Shown here in pieces: positions 2,127 to 20,330 of a stretch of 46,384 nt of DNA. The stretch comes from Nitrospinae bacterium CG11_big_fil_rev_8_21_14_0_20_45_15. GTDB taxonomy: Bacteria > Nitrospinota > Nitrospinia > Nitrospinales > VA-1. The translations under genes were made by a program, and so were the position numbers. Within the stretch, counting starts at the first letter, position 1. Every line of letters begins with the position of its first letter. The stretch spans positions 227,713 to 274,096 of the forward strand of contig PCWG01000042.1 of assembly GCA_002787235.1 (NCBI GenBank), read 5' to 3'. A model generated the notes under the pieces. It saw only the letters and a list, made by a program, of their open reading frames with translations. It did no database searches and was not told where the DNA came from.

Positions 2127-2723
2127 ATGGACGATGATCTGGAATACCGTTGCAGGTCACGGTTGAAAATCGAAGAGGACAGGAAAAGCCTCCAAATTTG
2201 TGCGGAGTGCCAAAGACCGATGCCTGAAAAGGCGGCCTTCTGCCCTCATTGTGGTCCTCCGTTGAACCTGAAGGATATTTCTGTAAGGCGAATGTCCGGG
2301 TTTTCTGCCTTTTTCTGGATACTCATCCTCTGCATTTCTTTTGCAGGATTTCTATATTATAAAGAAGGTGGTCACTGGGAAGAGCTTGAGTCTGGAATCA
2401 AATTGGAGGAATTTGAGTCAAAACTCAAAAAATTATTACAAAGGAAAGTCACGCAGTTGGAAAATAAACTTTCGATTTCCGAGAAGGGAGCCGAGCCCGA
2501 AAAGGAAATCGAGCTTGAAAAAACATACAAGGTGGTGATGAAGGTAAATATCAAAGCTTTGAATGTGCGCTCTCAAGCTACGACACGATCCGAAATTATA
2601 GGGGTTTTGTCGAACAATGAAGAGGTGACGATTGTTGAAAGTAAAGATGGTTGGTCGCAAATAAAATTCAAAGAAAAAACCGGATGGGTCGCTTCCCGTT
2701 ATTTATCGGCAGAGATACAATGA
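2127..2723 (+). CDS. Zinc-ribbon membrane protein with C-terminal bacterial SH3 domain
   Basis: 198 aa. Cytoplasmic N-terminus with a zinc ribbon made of two CxxC pairs (CAECQRP... FCPHCG, about residues 25-45). One transmembrane helix follows (FFWILILCISFAGFLYY, about 63-80), then a charged Lys/Glu-rich coiled-coil-like stretch. A C-terminal SH3b (SH3 type 3) domain comes last, with the hallmark ALNVRSQATTRSEIIG and GWVASRYL. SH3b domains usually bind cell-wall peptides or glycans, so the predicted topology puts a wall-binding module outside and a zinc ribbon inside. The specific role is unknown. The architecture is reliable from the sequence; function is not. Confidence 0.75.
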   Translation: MDDDLEYRCRSRLKIEEDRKSLQICAECQRPMPEKAAFCPHCGPPLNLKDISVRRMSGFSAFFWILILCISFAGFLYYKEGGHWEELESGIKLEEFESKLKKLLQRKVTQLENKLSISEKGAEPEKEIELEKTYKVVMKVNIKALNVRSQATTRSEIIGVLSNNEEVTIVESKDGWSQIKFKEKTGWVASRYLSAEIQ

Positions 2724-2814
2724 ACGCTGTACAAACAATGAGTTCTCAGCGATAGAAGGCATGTGGGTCTCATCTTTAACAAAATAATCAGGATATTCAG
2801 AAAGATATAATTTA

Positions 2815-3537
2815 ATGCAAAGTTTTCCTTATAAGGCGGTTGTGTTCGACTGGGCCTACACCTTGGTCGATCTTGTGGAAGAATGTGATGAGAAGGCATT
2901 TGAGCGAATTTATCAAAAAATGCAGGGCTGGGGATGGAATCTGCCTGAATATAAAGTGGTTTACGATCATTACCGGGAAGTATTTGAAATGATGGTCCAC
3001 CAGTCTAGGTCCACGCATCAGGAAGCCCGCTTCGAAGAAGTTCTCAAGCTTCTTTTATTGAGTCACTATAAGGAGAAAGTGGAAAACGAAAAAATTCGTG
3101 AGTTATTGCGGGAATATTATGAAGAGATTTATAAACCTCGAAAAGTGTACGATGAAACGATCCCTGTTTTACAGGAGCTACAGGGAAAAGGTGTGCGCAT
3201 GGGAATCATCTCTAACACGACGAATCCGGATTTCATGAAAGATTACGAACGCGAACTTTTGGGACTATCTCCCTATTTTGAGTTTTCGATTTATTCCTCT
3301 GGAGTTCCCTTTCGCAAGCCGCATCCCAGTATTTATGAAATTGCTCTGACACGTTTGTCAGTGCCCGTCGAGGAAATTCTGTTCGTAGGTGACAGCCCCT
3401 TGACAGATATTGCCGGACCGCAAGCTGTGGGCATGCACACCGCATGGCTGAACCGGGAAGATGCTCCGCACCCCGAGCCAATCCGTCCGCATTATGTGAT
3501 TCATTCTTTGGCAGATTTGCTGGAAATCAGTCAATAA
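2815..3537 (+). CDS. HAD-superfamily hydrolase with atypical motif I
   Basis: 240 aa, class I HAD phosphatase-like protein with an alpha-helical cap after motif I. Motif I reads FDWAYTL: nucleophile Asp12 is present, but the usual second Asp (+2, general acid/base) is Ala14. Motif II is ISNTT, the motif III Lys is in RKPHPSIYE, and motif IV is VGDSPLTDIAG with the acidic pair. An Ala at +2 is known in phosphonoacetaldehyde hydrolases (DWAGT), which use a cap Schiff-base Lys instead; other HADs with a changed +2 residue include dehalogenases. No phosphonate genes are nearby, so the substrate is open. It lies 8 nt upstream of rsmE and is probably co-transcribed with it. Confidence 0.85.
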   Translation: MQSFPYKAVVFDWAYTLVDLVEECDEKAFERIYQKMQGWGWNLPEYKVVYDHYREVFEMMVHQSRSTHQEARFEEVLKLLLLSHYKEKVENEKIRELLREYYEEIYKPRKVYDETIPVLQELQGKGVRMGIISNTTNPDFMKDYERELLGLSPYFEFSIYSSGVPFRKPHPSIYEIALTRLSVPVEEILFVGDSPLTDIAGPQAVGMHTAWLNREDAPHPEPIRPHYVIHSLADLLEISQ

Positions 3538-3545
3538 ATCAATCT

Positions 3546-4289
3546 ATGTCGCTTCCTCGTTTTTACATTTCTCCTGAAAATAAATTGGTAGATCGCATTT
3601 TATTTCGGGAGCAGGACTGGAATCATATCAGGAACGCTCTCAGGCTGGAGTCCGGGGCAAAGGTTTACGCCTTCGATGGTCATGGCATTCAATACCTTGT
3701 GCAGTTGGATCGGGTCGATAAGCAGGGTGTCGAAGGGATCATCCTTCAGAGCGAGCAGAGTAAAAACGAATCACCGCTATCCATCACATTGGGGCAAGCT
3801 TGGCTCCAGGATAGCAAAATGTCGACCTTGGTGAGGCAAGTCGTCGAGTTGGGAATCGTCGCACTTTACCCTCTGGTTACGGAAAGGTGTCAGGTGAAAA
3901 AAAAAGCATTGCAGGAATCATCAAAAGCTTTCCGTTGGGAAGAGATTGCGCGGCAAGCGGCACGGCAGTCGGGACGCTCAAGGGTTCCTGAAATTCAAAA
4001 AAAGTTTTACAGTCCGAAAGAATTTTTTGCAGAAGCAGAGAGTTTCGATCTCAAACTGATTTTTTGGGAAGACGAAAAAGCAACCACACTTCAGGATATT
4101 TCAGCCAAACAGGAGATCAAAACAGCGAGCTTGTTGTTTGGTCCCGAAGGTGGCTGGAGTCGGGAAGAAATCGAAACTGCCCGAAGCCATGGTTATCAGA
4201 CCATCAGCCTGGGACCAAGGATTTTAAGGGCCGAAACCGCTCCCCTTACAGCCATTTCTGTTTTACAATACATCTGGGGCGATATTTAA
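3546..4289 (+). CDS. rsmE: 16S rRNA m3U1498 methyltransferase RsmE
   Basis: 247 aa SPOUT-class SAM-dependent methyltransferase that modifies U1498 of 16S rRNA. The N-terminal PUA-like part starts MSLPRFYISPENK. The C-terminal trefoil knot has the family signature LLFGPEGGWSREEIE followed by SLGPRILRAETAPLTAIS. The open frame extends upstream to 3444 inside the HAD gene, but family alignment and the intergenic position favour the ATG at 3546, eight nt after the HAD stop. Upstream SD is weak. Length matches the usual ~245 aa. Confidence 0.95.
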   Translation: MSLPRFYISPENKLVDRILFREQDWNHIRNALRLESGAKVYAFDGHGIQYLVQLDRVDKQGVEGIILQSEQSKNESPLSITLGQAWLQDSKMSTLVRQVVELGIVALYPLVTERCQVKKKALQESSKAFRWEEIARQAARQSGRSRVPEIQKKFYSPKEFFAEAESFDLKLIFWEDEKATTLQDISAKQEIKTASLLFGPEGGWSREEIETARSHGYQTISLGPRILRAETAPLTAISVLQYIWGDI

Positions 4290-16765: not shown

Positions 16766-16963
16766 ATGCAGAGAAAAATTGTCGCGTTCCATCAGGACAA
16801 AGAAAACCACTGGGTCGCCGATCTCGAATGCGGACACGGACAGCATCGCCGCCACAACCCACCCCTGATCGAGCGTGAATGGGTTCTCAGTGCGGAAGGA
16901 CGACAGCCCTTCATCGGCACCGAACTGAATTGTAAAAAATGCGACGAAGAATTCGCAGACTAG
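16766..16963 (+). CDS. DUF3565 zinc-ribbon-like small protein
   Basis: 65 aa. It matches the pattern of DUF3565: QRKIVAFHQDKENHWVADL, then CGHGQHRRHNPP and a C-terminal CKKC. The CGH...CKKC set suggests one metal site. The family has no established function. It lies 10 nt after pyrD and 24 nt before the preferred truA start, so it is in the same operon. The ATG is preceded by AAAGAG. The open frame extends upstream into pyrD, but the family begins at this Met. Confidence 0.8.
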   Translation: MQRKIVAFHQDKENHWVADLECGHGQHRRHNPPLIEREWVLSAEGRQPFIGTELNCKKCDEEFAD

Positions 16964-16986
16964 AAAATTTATCGAAAGAGCAGAGC

Positions 16987-17823
16987 GTGCCGGAAAATTT
17001 GGACACTGAAACAAAACCACAAAAAAAAATGAAACTGCTTCTGGAATACGAAGGCACCCGCTACTGCGGCTGGCAGTCCCAGAAAAATGGCGTTTCCATA
17101 CAAGAGATCGTGCAGGGCGTATTGAGCCGAATGCACAACACGCCGACCATCGTCTGGTCCTCCGGCAGAACCGACGCAGGAGTTCACGCGCAAGAACAGA
17201 TGGTGCATTTTTTTACCGAGTCCAGGATGACCGACCTGCAATGGCTCAAAGGCATCAACGGACTGCTCCCGACCGATATCGTCGTGAAACAAGTATCCCT
17301 CGCCGAACCGGACTTCCACGCACAGGCATCCTGCAAAGGCAAACTCTATCGCTACACTATATTGAATCGCGATTTCCCAACAGCACTCGATTTTCCCTAC
17401 TCATGGTACCTCTATTATCCGCTCGACGTGGAGGCCATGCGCGAGGCCGTGCAAGTACTCGAAGGACGGCACGACTTCACCTCCTTTCGCGGCTCTAAAT
17501 GCGGCGCGAAAAGCGCGGACCGATACTTGATGAAAACCGTCGTCCGCAAAGAAGGCGACCGCATCCAGTGTTACTTCATCGGCAACGGATTCCTCAAGCA
17601 CATGATACGCATCATCATGGGAACCGTTGTGTTGGCAGGAAGAGGGCTATTGAAGCCCGCAGACATGACGCAAATACTCGAAGCCCGCAACCGCAGAAAA
17701 GCCGGCCCCACCGCACCCGCCAAAGGGCTCTGCCTGATGCGCGTCTTTTATGACATCGAAGAACGTAGCGATTGCCTGCACCGCCTCCAGAACAGCCCCA
17801 TAGAAATCCCCTTCCTCGGCTGA
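16987..17823 (+). CDS. truA: tRNA pseudouridine synthase TruA
   Basis: 278 aa from a GTG start. Isomerises U38-U40 in the tRNA anticodon arm. Family signatures: LEYEGTRYCGWQSQ, the catalytic Asp in SSGRTDAGVHA, KLYRYTI, HDFTSFRG and FLKHMIRIIMGTVVLAGRG. The start is uncertain: ATG 16939 overlaps the DUF3565 gene, GTG 16987 follows GAAAGAG, and ATG 17029 gives the shortest form with the canonical TruA N-terminus (264 aa) but no SD. All three are in frame. Ends the pyrD operon. Confidence 0.94.
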   Translation: MPENLDTETKPQKKMKLLLEYEGTRYCGWQSQKNGVSIQEIVQGVLSRMHNTPTIVWSSGRTDAGVHAQEQMVHFFTESRMTDLQWLKGINGLLPTDIVVKQVSLAEPDFHAQASCKGKLYRYTILNRDFPTALDFPYSWYLYYPLDVEAMREAVQVLEGRHDFTSFRGSKCGAKSADRYLMKTVVRKEGDRIQCYFIGNGFLKHMIRIIMGTVVLAGRGLLKPADMTQILEARNRRKAGPTAPAKGLCLMRVFYDIEERSDCLHRLQNSPIEIPFLG

Positions 17824-17861: not shown

Positions 17862-17888
17862 CGTCATCCTGAGCAAAGTGAAGGATCT
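17862..17888. repeat. Palindromic intergenic repeat, GTCATCCTGAGC type
   Basis: 27 nt with arms ATCCT and AGGAT around GAGCAAAGTGA. From general familiarity this resembles a short repeat scattered between genes in many unrelated bacterial genomes. Only one copy is visible here. Confidence 0.6.
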
Positions 17889-17935
17889 CTATCGTGCAAA
17901 CTTAATACAATTGTATGATATTAAAATATAAAGCA

Positions 17936-17948
17936 AAGATTTGACCCT
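17936..17948 (+). repeat. 13-nt direct repeat, copy 1
   Basis: AAGATTTGACCCT, identical to 18090-18102 and in the same orientation. The two copies bracket the REP-like palindrome at 17999-18033. Confidence 0.7.
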
Positions 17949-17998
17949 ATTTAAGATTGTTACAATTAGAAGGGAAAGATTCTAGTGACCAAAAAACC

Positions 17999-18033
17999 GT
18001 CATTGCGAGACGCCAAAGGCGGCGCGGCAATCC
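17999..18033. repeat. REP-like palindrome, CATTGCGAG...GGCAATCC type
   Basis: 35 nt. Arms ATTGC/GCAAT and CGCC/GGCG fold into a hairpin around AAA with internal mismatches. Similar ATTGCGAG...CGGCAATCC palindromes are widespread in bacterial intergenic DNA; this is recalled knowledge, not searched. Confidence 0.7.
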
Positions 18034-18089
18034 ATTTTTATTTTTAAGTGATTACACACTCAAAATGATGCGCAATATTCTATTAAAAC

Positions 18090-18102
18090 AAGATTTGACC
18101 CT
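18090..18102 (+). repeat. 13-nt direct repeat, copy 2
   Basis: AAGATTTGACCCT, identical to 17936-17948, 154 nt apart start to start. Confidence 0.7.
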
Positions 18103-18167
18103 AAATATTATGGTAAAAATTAAATTGCAAGGTGTCTAGAAAATCAGGGGTGCATCATTATTCACGC

Positions 18168-20330
18168 TTAACTTAAACAACATTTTTTAAATTTTTTCCC
18201 GCTTCCACATGGGCAGTCGTCATTTCGCCCTACTTTTTTTGATTTACTAGTTACTGTTTTGAAATTAAACTTTTCCCCTCTTTTTACTTTTTGTGGTTTC
18301 GGCAAATTTTTTACTAAATGATCCATTTCATTTGATTGAACCCAATCATATTCATTATTAACACCGAATCTTAATCTTGGACTCGCTTGTCCAATGCAGA
18401 TCCCAAACCATGAGCTTGCTTTTTGTATGTACTTTCTTCTCTTGCAGTGATTTTCTAAGCGAGGTACTGCTATAGAGACATCATCGTCATTGAGGTGAAG
18501 AGTTAGGCCAGTTGCTCCATCATCTAAAAGAAATGTAAAATCATGAGGTTTGCCATCTTTATCTTTCAGTTTGATCATTTGAGAAATTCCATCGTTTATT
18601 GTTTCAATGGCATTTCCTGAAAGGGCAAGTAACATAAAACCTAAGTCTATTGTTGCAGGATGGTCTAGAATATTTATATCTTTTATTATTTGATCGAATT
18701 CGGTGTCTTTATATTTAGTTAAAATTCCCTCAGGAACATGTGATCCATGCAATCCTTCACGTCTTACCATCATTGCAAGGTCAAGGTCTGCGCATAAATC
18801 TCCTCCGAGAATCATCATGTTTTGGCCTTCATCCATATATAAATTATTTTTCAGATGATATGAAAGAATGGTCAGCTCATGTGAAGAGATAATTTTTTTG
18901 CCGTAAGATGTTCTCCTGTTTATATAGCTCAAAAAATGTAGAGGCGATTGTAGCATTTCCGTTATGACATCAAGGAAAAACACGTCCATTACGAATGGAA
19001 CTTTTATATATTTTGTTTCCTGATAAACTAGAAATTGCATTGCTTGGAAGGAAAGAGCTGGGTAGTGATCAGACACGACACAAAAAGGATATATTTCTTT
19101 GTACTCTCGTTTAATATTTAACTCATTTCCTTTTTTATCAATGAGCTTATAGTTTTTGTCCGTTAAGAAAGAAGCGCATGAGAAAGCTTGATCGTAAGCT
19201 TCTTGAACTGCTTTCTTGAAGTCTTCCTTGAGACAATTATCATTGCCTTTTCGTGCAGCAATAGTAAGCTTTTTTGATTTTGCCTGTAGAAGTATTACTC
19301 TATTTCCAAATACAACCAGAACGTCTATTTCCCCAACTTGGTCGCCTTTAGAGTCGAAGATATCGATATTCATATACACGCGATGTTCGCCAAAAACGAG
19401 CTTCAGTCTTTCAGCAGAAAACTCCTCAGTAAACTCGCCTCTATGCTGCATGGCACTAGGTTGGTATTGCTTATCTGCACAAAACCAGAAAAATGGTGTT
19501 TCATACAGTGCTTCCACCAAATTATAATTCTGGAATAATAAAAAAGTATCTTCTTGAAGTTTAATTATTGGATATGCCTTTTTAGGGTTAAAGTCATCTA
19601 AAGAATTGAATCCATGCATATCCATAGGTGCTACAAAGGACTCAATAATTTGCCTCGATACATCAATGTTAATATTTGAGGAACCGCTAACTTCTTCAGT
19701 TGTAAATTTAAAACTTTCAAGAAAATTCCACTCATTTGGATGTTGATTAGCGAACTGGTTTAAATTGTAATTAATTTTTTTGTTCTGCAGTAATTGTATT
19801 GATGTCACAATATCAAAAGCTTGCTGAGCAGAAAAACCTTTGTTTTCCAGTAACCAATCATTATCTTTTTTGTTTTTGATTTTCGAAAGGTCTCTATATT
19901 GAAATTGATATGCAGATTCCCCGCCATAGAAAATTGCCTCCCTCAAAACATTGCCTTTTTTAAACGGGTTAAAATTTTGATCACCAATTTTACAGGGATC
20001 AAATAATTCCTTTAGCGGCACCATAGATTCATGAATTTCTTTTAGTAGTGAATCGGTCCTGACAATGTATTTTTGGAGGATATCGGGCGAAGGGAGCTCT
20101 GTGCTTAAAGGTTTTTTACATAAGAGCCCGATGAGGGTTGATATTTCAGTTCTCACCAATTTATCCTTTGAGTACTGCGTTAAAATATTATCTGAGGTTA
20201 TTGTGTCAGAATATTTAATCGTATTGTCTCTAAAACAAAAGTGTGCAATCGCATGAACGTATCCTGGAGAAACGCATAGTTCCGCTAGTTCTGAAAATAT
20301 TTCAGATTCTTTTCTAATTTCCAAGTTCAA
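18168..20330 (-). CDS. PD-(D/E)XK/NERD-like nuclease-domain protein with C-terminal SEC-C motif
   Basis: 720 aa, AT-rich, not recognised as a named gene. A helical N-terminal half of about 290 residues has no motif I know. A NERD/restriction-endonuclease-like core follows: EFTEEFSAERL (candidate Glu about 303), VGEIDVLVVFGNRVILLQAK (Asp about 336, Q-x-K about 349-351), then SKKLTIAARKG. These are the D...(D/E/Q)xK ligands of the PD-(D/E)XK fold. The last 19 residues are a SEC-C zinc motif, GRNDDCPCGSGKKFKKCC. The start is TTG with GGAG 9 nt upstream (20340-20343); no ATG exists before residue 103 in the open frame. Base composition and flanking repeats suggest transfer. A stand-alone defence or DNA-processing role is inference. 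Confidence 0.75.
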   Translation of the reverse strand: MNLEIRKESEIFSELAELCVSPGYVHAIAHFCFRDNTIKYSDTITSDNILTQYSKDKLVRTEISTLIGLLCKKPLSTELPSPDILQKYIVRTDSLLKEIHESMVPLKELFDPCKIGDQNFNPFKKGNVLREAIFYGGESAYQFQYRDLSKIKNKKDNDWLLENKGFSAQQAFDIVTSIQLLQNKKINYNLNQFANQHPNEWNFLESFKFTTEEVSGSSNINIDVSRQIIESFVAPMDMHGFNSLDDFNPKKAYPIIKLQEDTFLLFQNYNLVEALYETPFFWFCADKQYQPSAMQHRGEFTEEFSAERLKLVFGEHRVYMNIDIFDSKGDQVGEIDVLVVFGNRVILLQAKSKKLTIAARKGNDNCLKEDFKKAVQEAYDQAFSCASFLTDKNYKLIDKKGNELNIKREYKEIYPFCVVSDHYPALSFQAMQFLVYQETKYIKVPFVMDVFFLDVITEMLQSPLHFLSYINRRTSYGKKIISSHELTILSYHLKNNLYMDEGQNMMILGGDLCADLDLAMMVRREGLHGSHVPEGILTKYKDTEFDQIIKDINILDHPATIDLGFMLLALSGNAIETINDGISQMIKLKDKDGKPHDFTFLLDDGATGLTLHLNDDDVSIAVPRLENHCKRRKYIQKASSWFGICIGQASPRLRFGVNNEYDWVQSNEMDHLVKNLPKPQKVKRGEKFNFKTVTSKSKKVGRNDDCPCGSGKKFKKCCLS

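Follow-up and report, generated by a model that had tools for sequence, protein, structure and literature searches.

TIRtrons and their transposases, the TIRYT, were described by Di Nocera et al. 2013 (PMC3733652), and the available text of that study reports families of loose TIRs, moderately abundant, in some genomes. The same text places REPs chiefly in convergent and co-directional gaps between genes and describes one class, the CGTC-tagged REPs, as having no dedicated transposase. The TIRYT group probably matches subclass 2.1 of Quentin et al. 2018 (PMC6006769), a subclass for which REP-like sequences are said not to be found nearby, as far as the accessible part of that paper goes. The locus presented here bears on the question of how single-copy RAYT-like transposases, with their scattered repeats, come to persist. 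Most such repeats are palindromic, so that RNA or DNA structure could account for their conservation, whereas the TIR studied here is non-palindromic; its small, countable set of sites also makes selection, binding, and loss directly testable.

Repeats in a convergent gap

In the window (the whole stretch of DNA analyzed, 46,384 nt), a sequence-only reading had pointed out two palindromes and a 13-mer pair at 17862-18102, interpreted the bracketed stretch as a composite mobile unit linked to REP-associated tyrosine transposases, and proposed counting the motifs genome-wide and looking for a RAYT-like gene with the motif at its ends. All of these repeats were recovered within one base of where they had been placed (Table 1): CGTCATCCTGAGCAAAGTGAAGGATCT begins at 17862 and CGTCATTGCGAGACGCCAAAGGCGGCGCGGCAATCCA at 17998, and AAGATTTGACCCT occurs on the + strand at both 17936-17948 and 18090-18102, as a direct repeat. 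The 13-mer pair was found by reading the sequence and by a motif scan, being missing from the automated repeat listing, and at the local base composition a 13-nt direct repeat of any sequence would arise within 240 nt with a probability of ~0.0015. The 13-mer was judged to be real because of its genome-wide copies, the decisive evidence: across its 3.37 Mb, the genome carries 23 copies of AAGATTTGACCCY, versus 0 of the reversed form.

Table 1. Features of the gap around 17862-18102 and the genes on either side
Feature	Position in window	Strand	Basis
CGTC-tagged palindromic repeat 1 (CGTCATCCTGAGC type)	17862..17888	+	Sequence, weak fold, one strict genome copy
CGTC-tagged palindromic repeat 2 (CGTCATTGCGAG...GGCAATCCA)	17998..18034	+	Sequence, hairpin, 5 strict genome copies, kept in G046
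Loose TIR copy 1	17924..17948, core 17936-17947	+	Exact motif, position-weight score 33.8
Loose TIR copy 2	18078..18102, core 18090-18101	+	Exact motif, position-weight score 39.7
Left neighbor: tRNA pseudouridine synthase (truA-like) gene, 3' end facing sites	16939..17823	+	PF01416
Right neighbor: NERD + SEC-C protein gene, convergent	18168..20330	-	PF08378, PF02810

Comparison of the window's genome (G000) with that of a sister species (G046) separated these repeats by history. The 18090 TIR copy has the same core at the orthologous place in the sister species (loci L155 and L121), and palindrome 2 is also present there, whereas neither the 17936 copy nor palindrome 1 has a counterpart in the orthologous gap. 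Because one pair is kept and the other is not, the stretch is made up of independent repeats that share one convergent gap, with a probable IS-element end (18115-18159) among them. The bracketing described in the sequence-only reading is real, but the bracketing ends are direct, not inverted, G046 holds the inside and the right end without the left end, and a second copy was not seen among the loci examined, all of which already makes it exceedingly unlikely that the 167 bp between the window copies are mobile as one unit. Synteny with G046 breaks directly past TIR copy 2; the genes beyond are unlike, and the position of the NERD/SEC-C gene is taken by a different gene. The segment at 18115-18159 itself has matches at several G046 positions and at one position in a congener (G047); one of these matches borders what resembles, as read by eye, the end of an IS3-family transposase, so that the segment probably represents a solitary IS end.

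Both palindromes carry a CGTC foot and are separate from the TIR system; palindrome 2 fits in full, and palindrome 1 in part, the CGTC-tagged class as presented in the available text of Di Nocera et al. (PMC3733652). Palindrome 2 has the CGTC foot, stem-loop, and CCA tail of that class, folds as single-stranded DNA (-8.8 kcal/mol, z -2.1), and occurs in strict form (CATTGCGAG..GGCAATC) 5 times in the genome. Palindrome 1 shares the CGTC start but lacks the CCA tail, hardly folds (-1.6 kcal/mol, z -0.15, no better than shuffles), and has a single strict copy (TCATCCTGAGC..GAAGGATCT); looser relatives were present at other loci examined. The class is distinct from the 13-mer repeat and has no dedicated transposase in the literature available to us, which speaks against the palindromes being part of a transposase-moved unit.

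A single transposase gene with inverted ends

The genome contains a single Y1_Tnp match, a 319-aa gene with inverted, outward-reading copies of AAGATTTGACCCC on each side, the arrangement that the sequence-only reading had proposed to look for. Its N-terminal part matches Y1_Tnp (PF01797, 42.6 bits) and its C-terminal part Bac_DnaA_C (PF08299, 32.5 bits), both over cut-off; the HxH block shows no variation across 14 aligned relatives, and a family profile compared with solved structures found DnaA chains only, via the C-terminal part. The proposed connection with REP-associated tyrosine transposases stood insofar as a Y1 gene with motif-bearing ends exists, but not as to family: the protein scores 44.2 bits with the NCBI REP_Tyr_transpos model, below its cut-off of 80. 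Because the C-terminal domain is DnaA-type, the protein is assigned on sequence grounds to the TIRYT/TIRtron group, not to the palindrome-linked RAYTs. The TIR tip GGGGTCAA matches 7 of 8 positions of the TIRtron consensus GGGGWSAS given in the accessible text of PMC3733652, and a 6-bp AT hairpin (-2.4 kcal/mol) is present at one element end, with none in the loose copies. One full copy of the element was found in the genome, plus one N-terminal fragment; the fragment, of a second TIRYT (contig C21:78420-78560, L343), has no TIR of this type nearby.

Some match to the transposase was obtained in 44 of the 77 genomes of the class searched, many of these matches spanning residues 225-319 only and looking like DnaA through the shared tail. 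Many full-length relatives have inverted AAGAYYTGACCCY-type ends, and inverted repeats scoring at least 11 were present at the gene ends of 41 of 55 loci from other bacteria, versus 1.0 expected from shuffles (63 of 80 loci were entered after manual exclusion of 17, many of which were partial matches, and a further 8 dropped out because a flank was too short). As a loose motif, AAGACYTGACCCY was not abundant in other lineages, with a maximum of 10 per genome across the 77 genomes. The TIR of at least one relative (L044) forms a clear hairpin (-4.1 kcal/mol, z -4.4); at that locus (G024 contig C1, ~1442900-1446000), several TIRYT genes or pieces lie in a row with hairpin TIRs of the AAGACYTGACCCC type.

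The sister species carries the transposase gene at the same place, with 89% identity to that of G000, the median for 117 orthologous ORFs in the compared G000/G046 stretches being 83%. In two genomes of another genus (G024 and G026), the two neighbor genes are adjacent, with neither a transposase gene nor a TIR between them. Because of this empty site, the element is probably a later arrival; its exact edges are unreadable from the comparison, the spacers having drifted. It would have entered an ancestor shared by G046 and the window's species and would have stayed as a single copy passed on vertically.

Loose TIR copies with and without the gene

Gap-free alignment of 46 sites gave a consensus near TATATnAAATCAAGATTTGACCCY, in which an AT-rich box immediately precedes AAGATTTGACCCY. 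The window's copies of the 13-mer show no stable fold as single-stranded DNA and no GT[AG]G foot, and the cores resemble each other even between unrelated sites of one genome. A profile search (E<=0.01) returned 33 sites in G000, 32 in G046, 1 in the congener G047, and at most 4 in each of the other 74 genomes. The G047 genome (97% complete, in a single contig) has no match to the transposase protein. This contrast covers two carriers, one of them an 87%-complete MAG (G046), and a single non-carrier; claims of absence are limited by MAG quality. At the loci examined, 36 sites in G000 and 32 in G046 had position-weight scores of at least 22, with a matrix trained on the sites of G000 and G046 and hence leaning towards both; one match to the 13-mer that falls within a long ORF (L185) was left out of both model and site set.

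An ancestral remnant was considered as the source of the single G047 site and rejected: no gene orthology was found at the locus, where the only stretch in common with G046 is a 91-bp match ~0.8-0.9 kb away. By eye, the site adjoins a HigBA-like toxin-antitoxin pair (L342, ~2500-3600), so that mobile DNA may have brought it in.

Conservation of cores at orthologous places

The 36 sites of G000 comprise the 2 element ends and 34 loose copies, and a counterpart at the orthologous place in G046, judged from the flanks, was identified for 25 of the 34. Of these pairs, 13 were chosen by the exact motif in both genomes, 6 after relaxing the motif, and 6 via flanking gene ends or the same gap (L170 by the left flank only). 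Core identity across the 25 pairs was 281/300 positions (94%), with no difference in 14 pairs, 1 in 7, 2 in 1, 3 in 2, and 4 in 1, so that conservation falls short of absolute; the 12 pairs chosen without an exact match in both genomes had a mean of 1.6 differences in 12. The flanks (-52..-13 and +20..+59) were identical at just 630/2000 positions when compared ungapped, and allowing gaps raised this to 66%, against 62% for wrongly paired flanks. Even the weakest counterparts scored 12.4 and 12.7, compared with -1.4 for the 95th percentile of the best score in random 300-bp windows.

For the remaining 9 loose sites, no G046 counterpart was seen. The flank was found without the site for the window's 17936 copy, L178, and L327; L330 and L331 had no G046 match; L169.1 and L169.2 sit in DNA missing from G046; and L333.0 and L333.2 are extra copies in a cluster. 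Six loci could be matched in G047 via one flank, and none had a site.

The strongest result is that a short non-palindromic word is kept at orthologous places, amid surroundings that have drifted, in both of the genomes that keep the enzyme. The near-unchanged state of the copies in a related species, amid DNA that has drifted, suggests some joint role for the enzyme and its scattered sites. Such cross-species conservation was not found in the available text of the literature on TIRYT, REP-like repeats, and Nitrospina repeats (PMC3733652, PMC6006769, PMC3686654), and a literature search with GGGGTCAAATCTTG gave no match. New here are the cross-species tracing of loose TIRs, their counts with and without the gene, their orthologous conservation, and their convergent bias.

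Were the loose TIRs inert relics, left over from past transposition in safe gaps and alike through common descent without upkeep, the decay of several sites would be natural. A core identity of 94% beside barely alignable flanks is unexpected for inert DNA of that age, however, and we regard this already disfavored reading as improbable, even though convergent gaps would also be the promoter-free ones and REPs have similar locations according to the accessible text of PMC3733652.

Placement relative to genes

Sites were concentrated between converging genes: 38 of the 58 classified in G000 and G046 fell in convergent gaps, 18 in co-directional gaps, and 2 in divergent gaps, whereas the 297 background gaps of the same loci were 37 convergent, 188 co-directional, and 72 divergent. 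The 58 remain from 68 sites once 8 that fall within an ORF call and 2 at the ends of contigs are set aside, and genes were called by a simple ORF rule. The bias held for G000 alone (19 of 31 sites convergent, p 4e-9), and no orientation preference was seen in co-directional gaps (8 versus 10).

These counts bear on whether the core is the site of an unrelated host protein (a regulator, a terminator factor, or an uptake sequence) carried by chance at transposon ends. A strongly conserved non-palindromic 12-mer, AT-rich on one side, would suit such a protein. A regulator is hard to reconcile with 2/58 sites in divergent gaps, and ~33 copies is a low number for an uptake sequence. Moreover, G047, without the transposase, is near-devoid of copies (1 profile match), and related genes in other phyla have TIRs of the same type, so that we hold a host-protein site to be very unlikely.

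A gene-cassette model, with TIRs as junctions of inserted genes, did not reach significance (p 0.07) and remains a lead: by hand count, 7 G000/G046 pairs lose synteny on the outer side of the site and 1 on its inner side. One cassette-like case was observed at L169:5182-7403 (G000 contig C2), in DNA that G046 lacks at the orthologous place: three TIR-like copies point the same way, and each of the two intervals holds one gene, of 153 aa and, collagen-like, of 338 aa.

Proposed explanation

We consider it probable that the locus belongs to a settled TIRYT/TIRtron whose roughly thirty loose TIRs are kept together with the enzyme, either through use by the host, which we favor, or through re-copying of the core. 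What we infer extends to binding and cleavage by the enzyme, the origin of the loose copies, selection, and benefit. The TIRYT would bind the double-stranded TIR through its DnaA-like tail, and its HUH core would cut or join single-stranded TIRs. The loose TIRs would stem from transposase activity and would then be kept because the enzyme-site pair is useful to the cell (the favored alternative) or because the enzyme re-copies the core. More specifically, and only tentatively, a domesticated TIRYT may occupy, by way of its DnaA-like tail, the roughly thirty TIR sites, most of them between convergent genes, its single-strand nuclease serving the host and gene and sites being kept or lost together; transcription or replication conflicts are a possible setting for the service of such a site-bound nuclease.

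The main rival to host use is homogenization without host benefit, whereby the transposase exchanges or re-copies cores while the flanks drift. This would explain the likeness of the cores of unrelated sites within one genome and the lack of sites where the enzyme is missing, but it sits uneasily with sites that stay orthologous, with the strong convergent bias, and with some sites having been left to decay (1 to 4 changes); nor has exchange activity been seen for the TIRYT group. We rate it as rather unlikely.

Comparison with known systems

The element shares with described TIRtrons a Y1 HUH transposase, a Bac_DnaA_C tail, and long inverted repeats with a GGGG tip (7 of 8 consensus positions), and loose TIR families, reported there from some genomes (PMC3733652, as far as available), are present here too; it differs in that the loose TIRs hold their orthologous places while the flanks have drifted, and in that they are near-absent in a congener without the gene. 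With RAYT/TnpAREP and their REPs or REPINs it has in common one settled Y1 gene and many small repeats, mostly downstream of genes. REPs are, however, palindromes with a GT[AG]G foot, in contrast to the non-palindromic, footless TIR seen here, and the protein falls under the NCBI RAYT cut-off. IS200/IS605 elements have the same Y1 HUH core, but the present element is set apart by its C-terminal DnaA-like domain, by inverted ends of which one has a 6-bp AT hairpin and the loose copies none, and by its one full copy, as opposed to the several near-identical full copies per genome by which IS200/IS605 elements are recognized.
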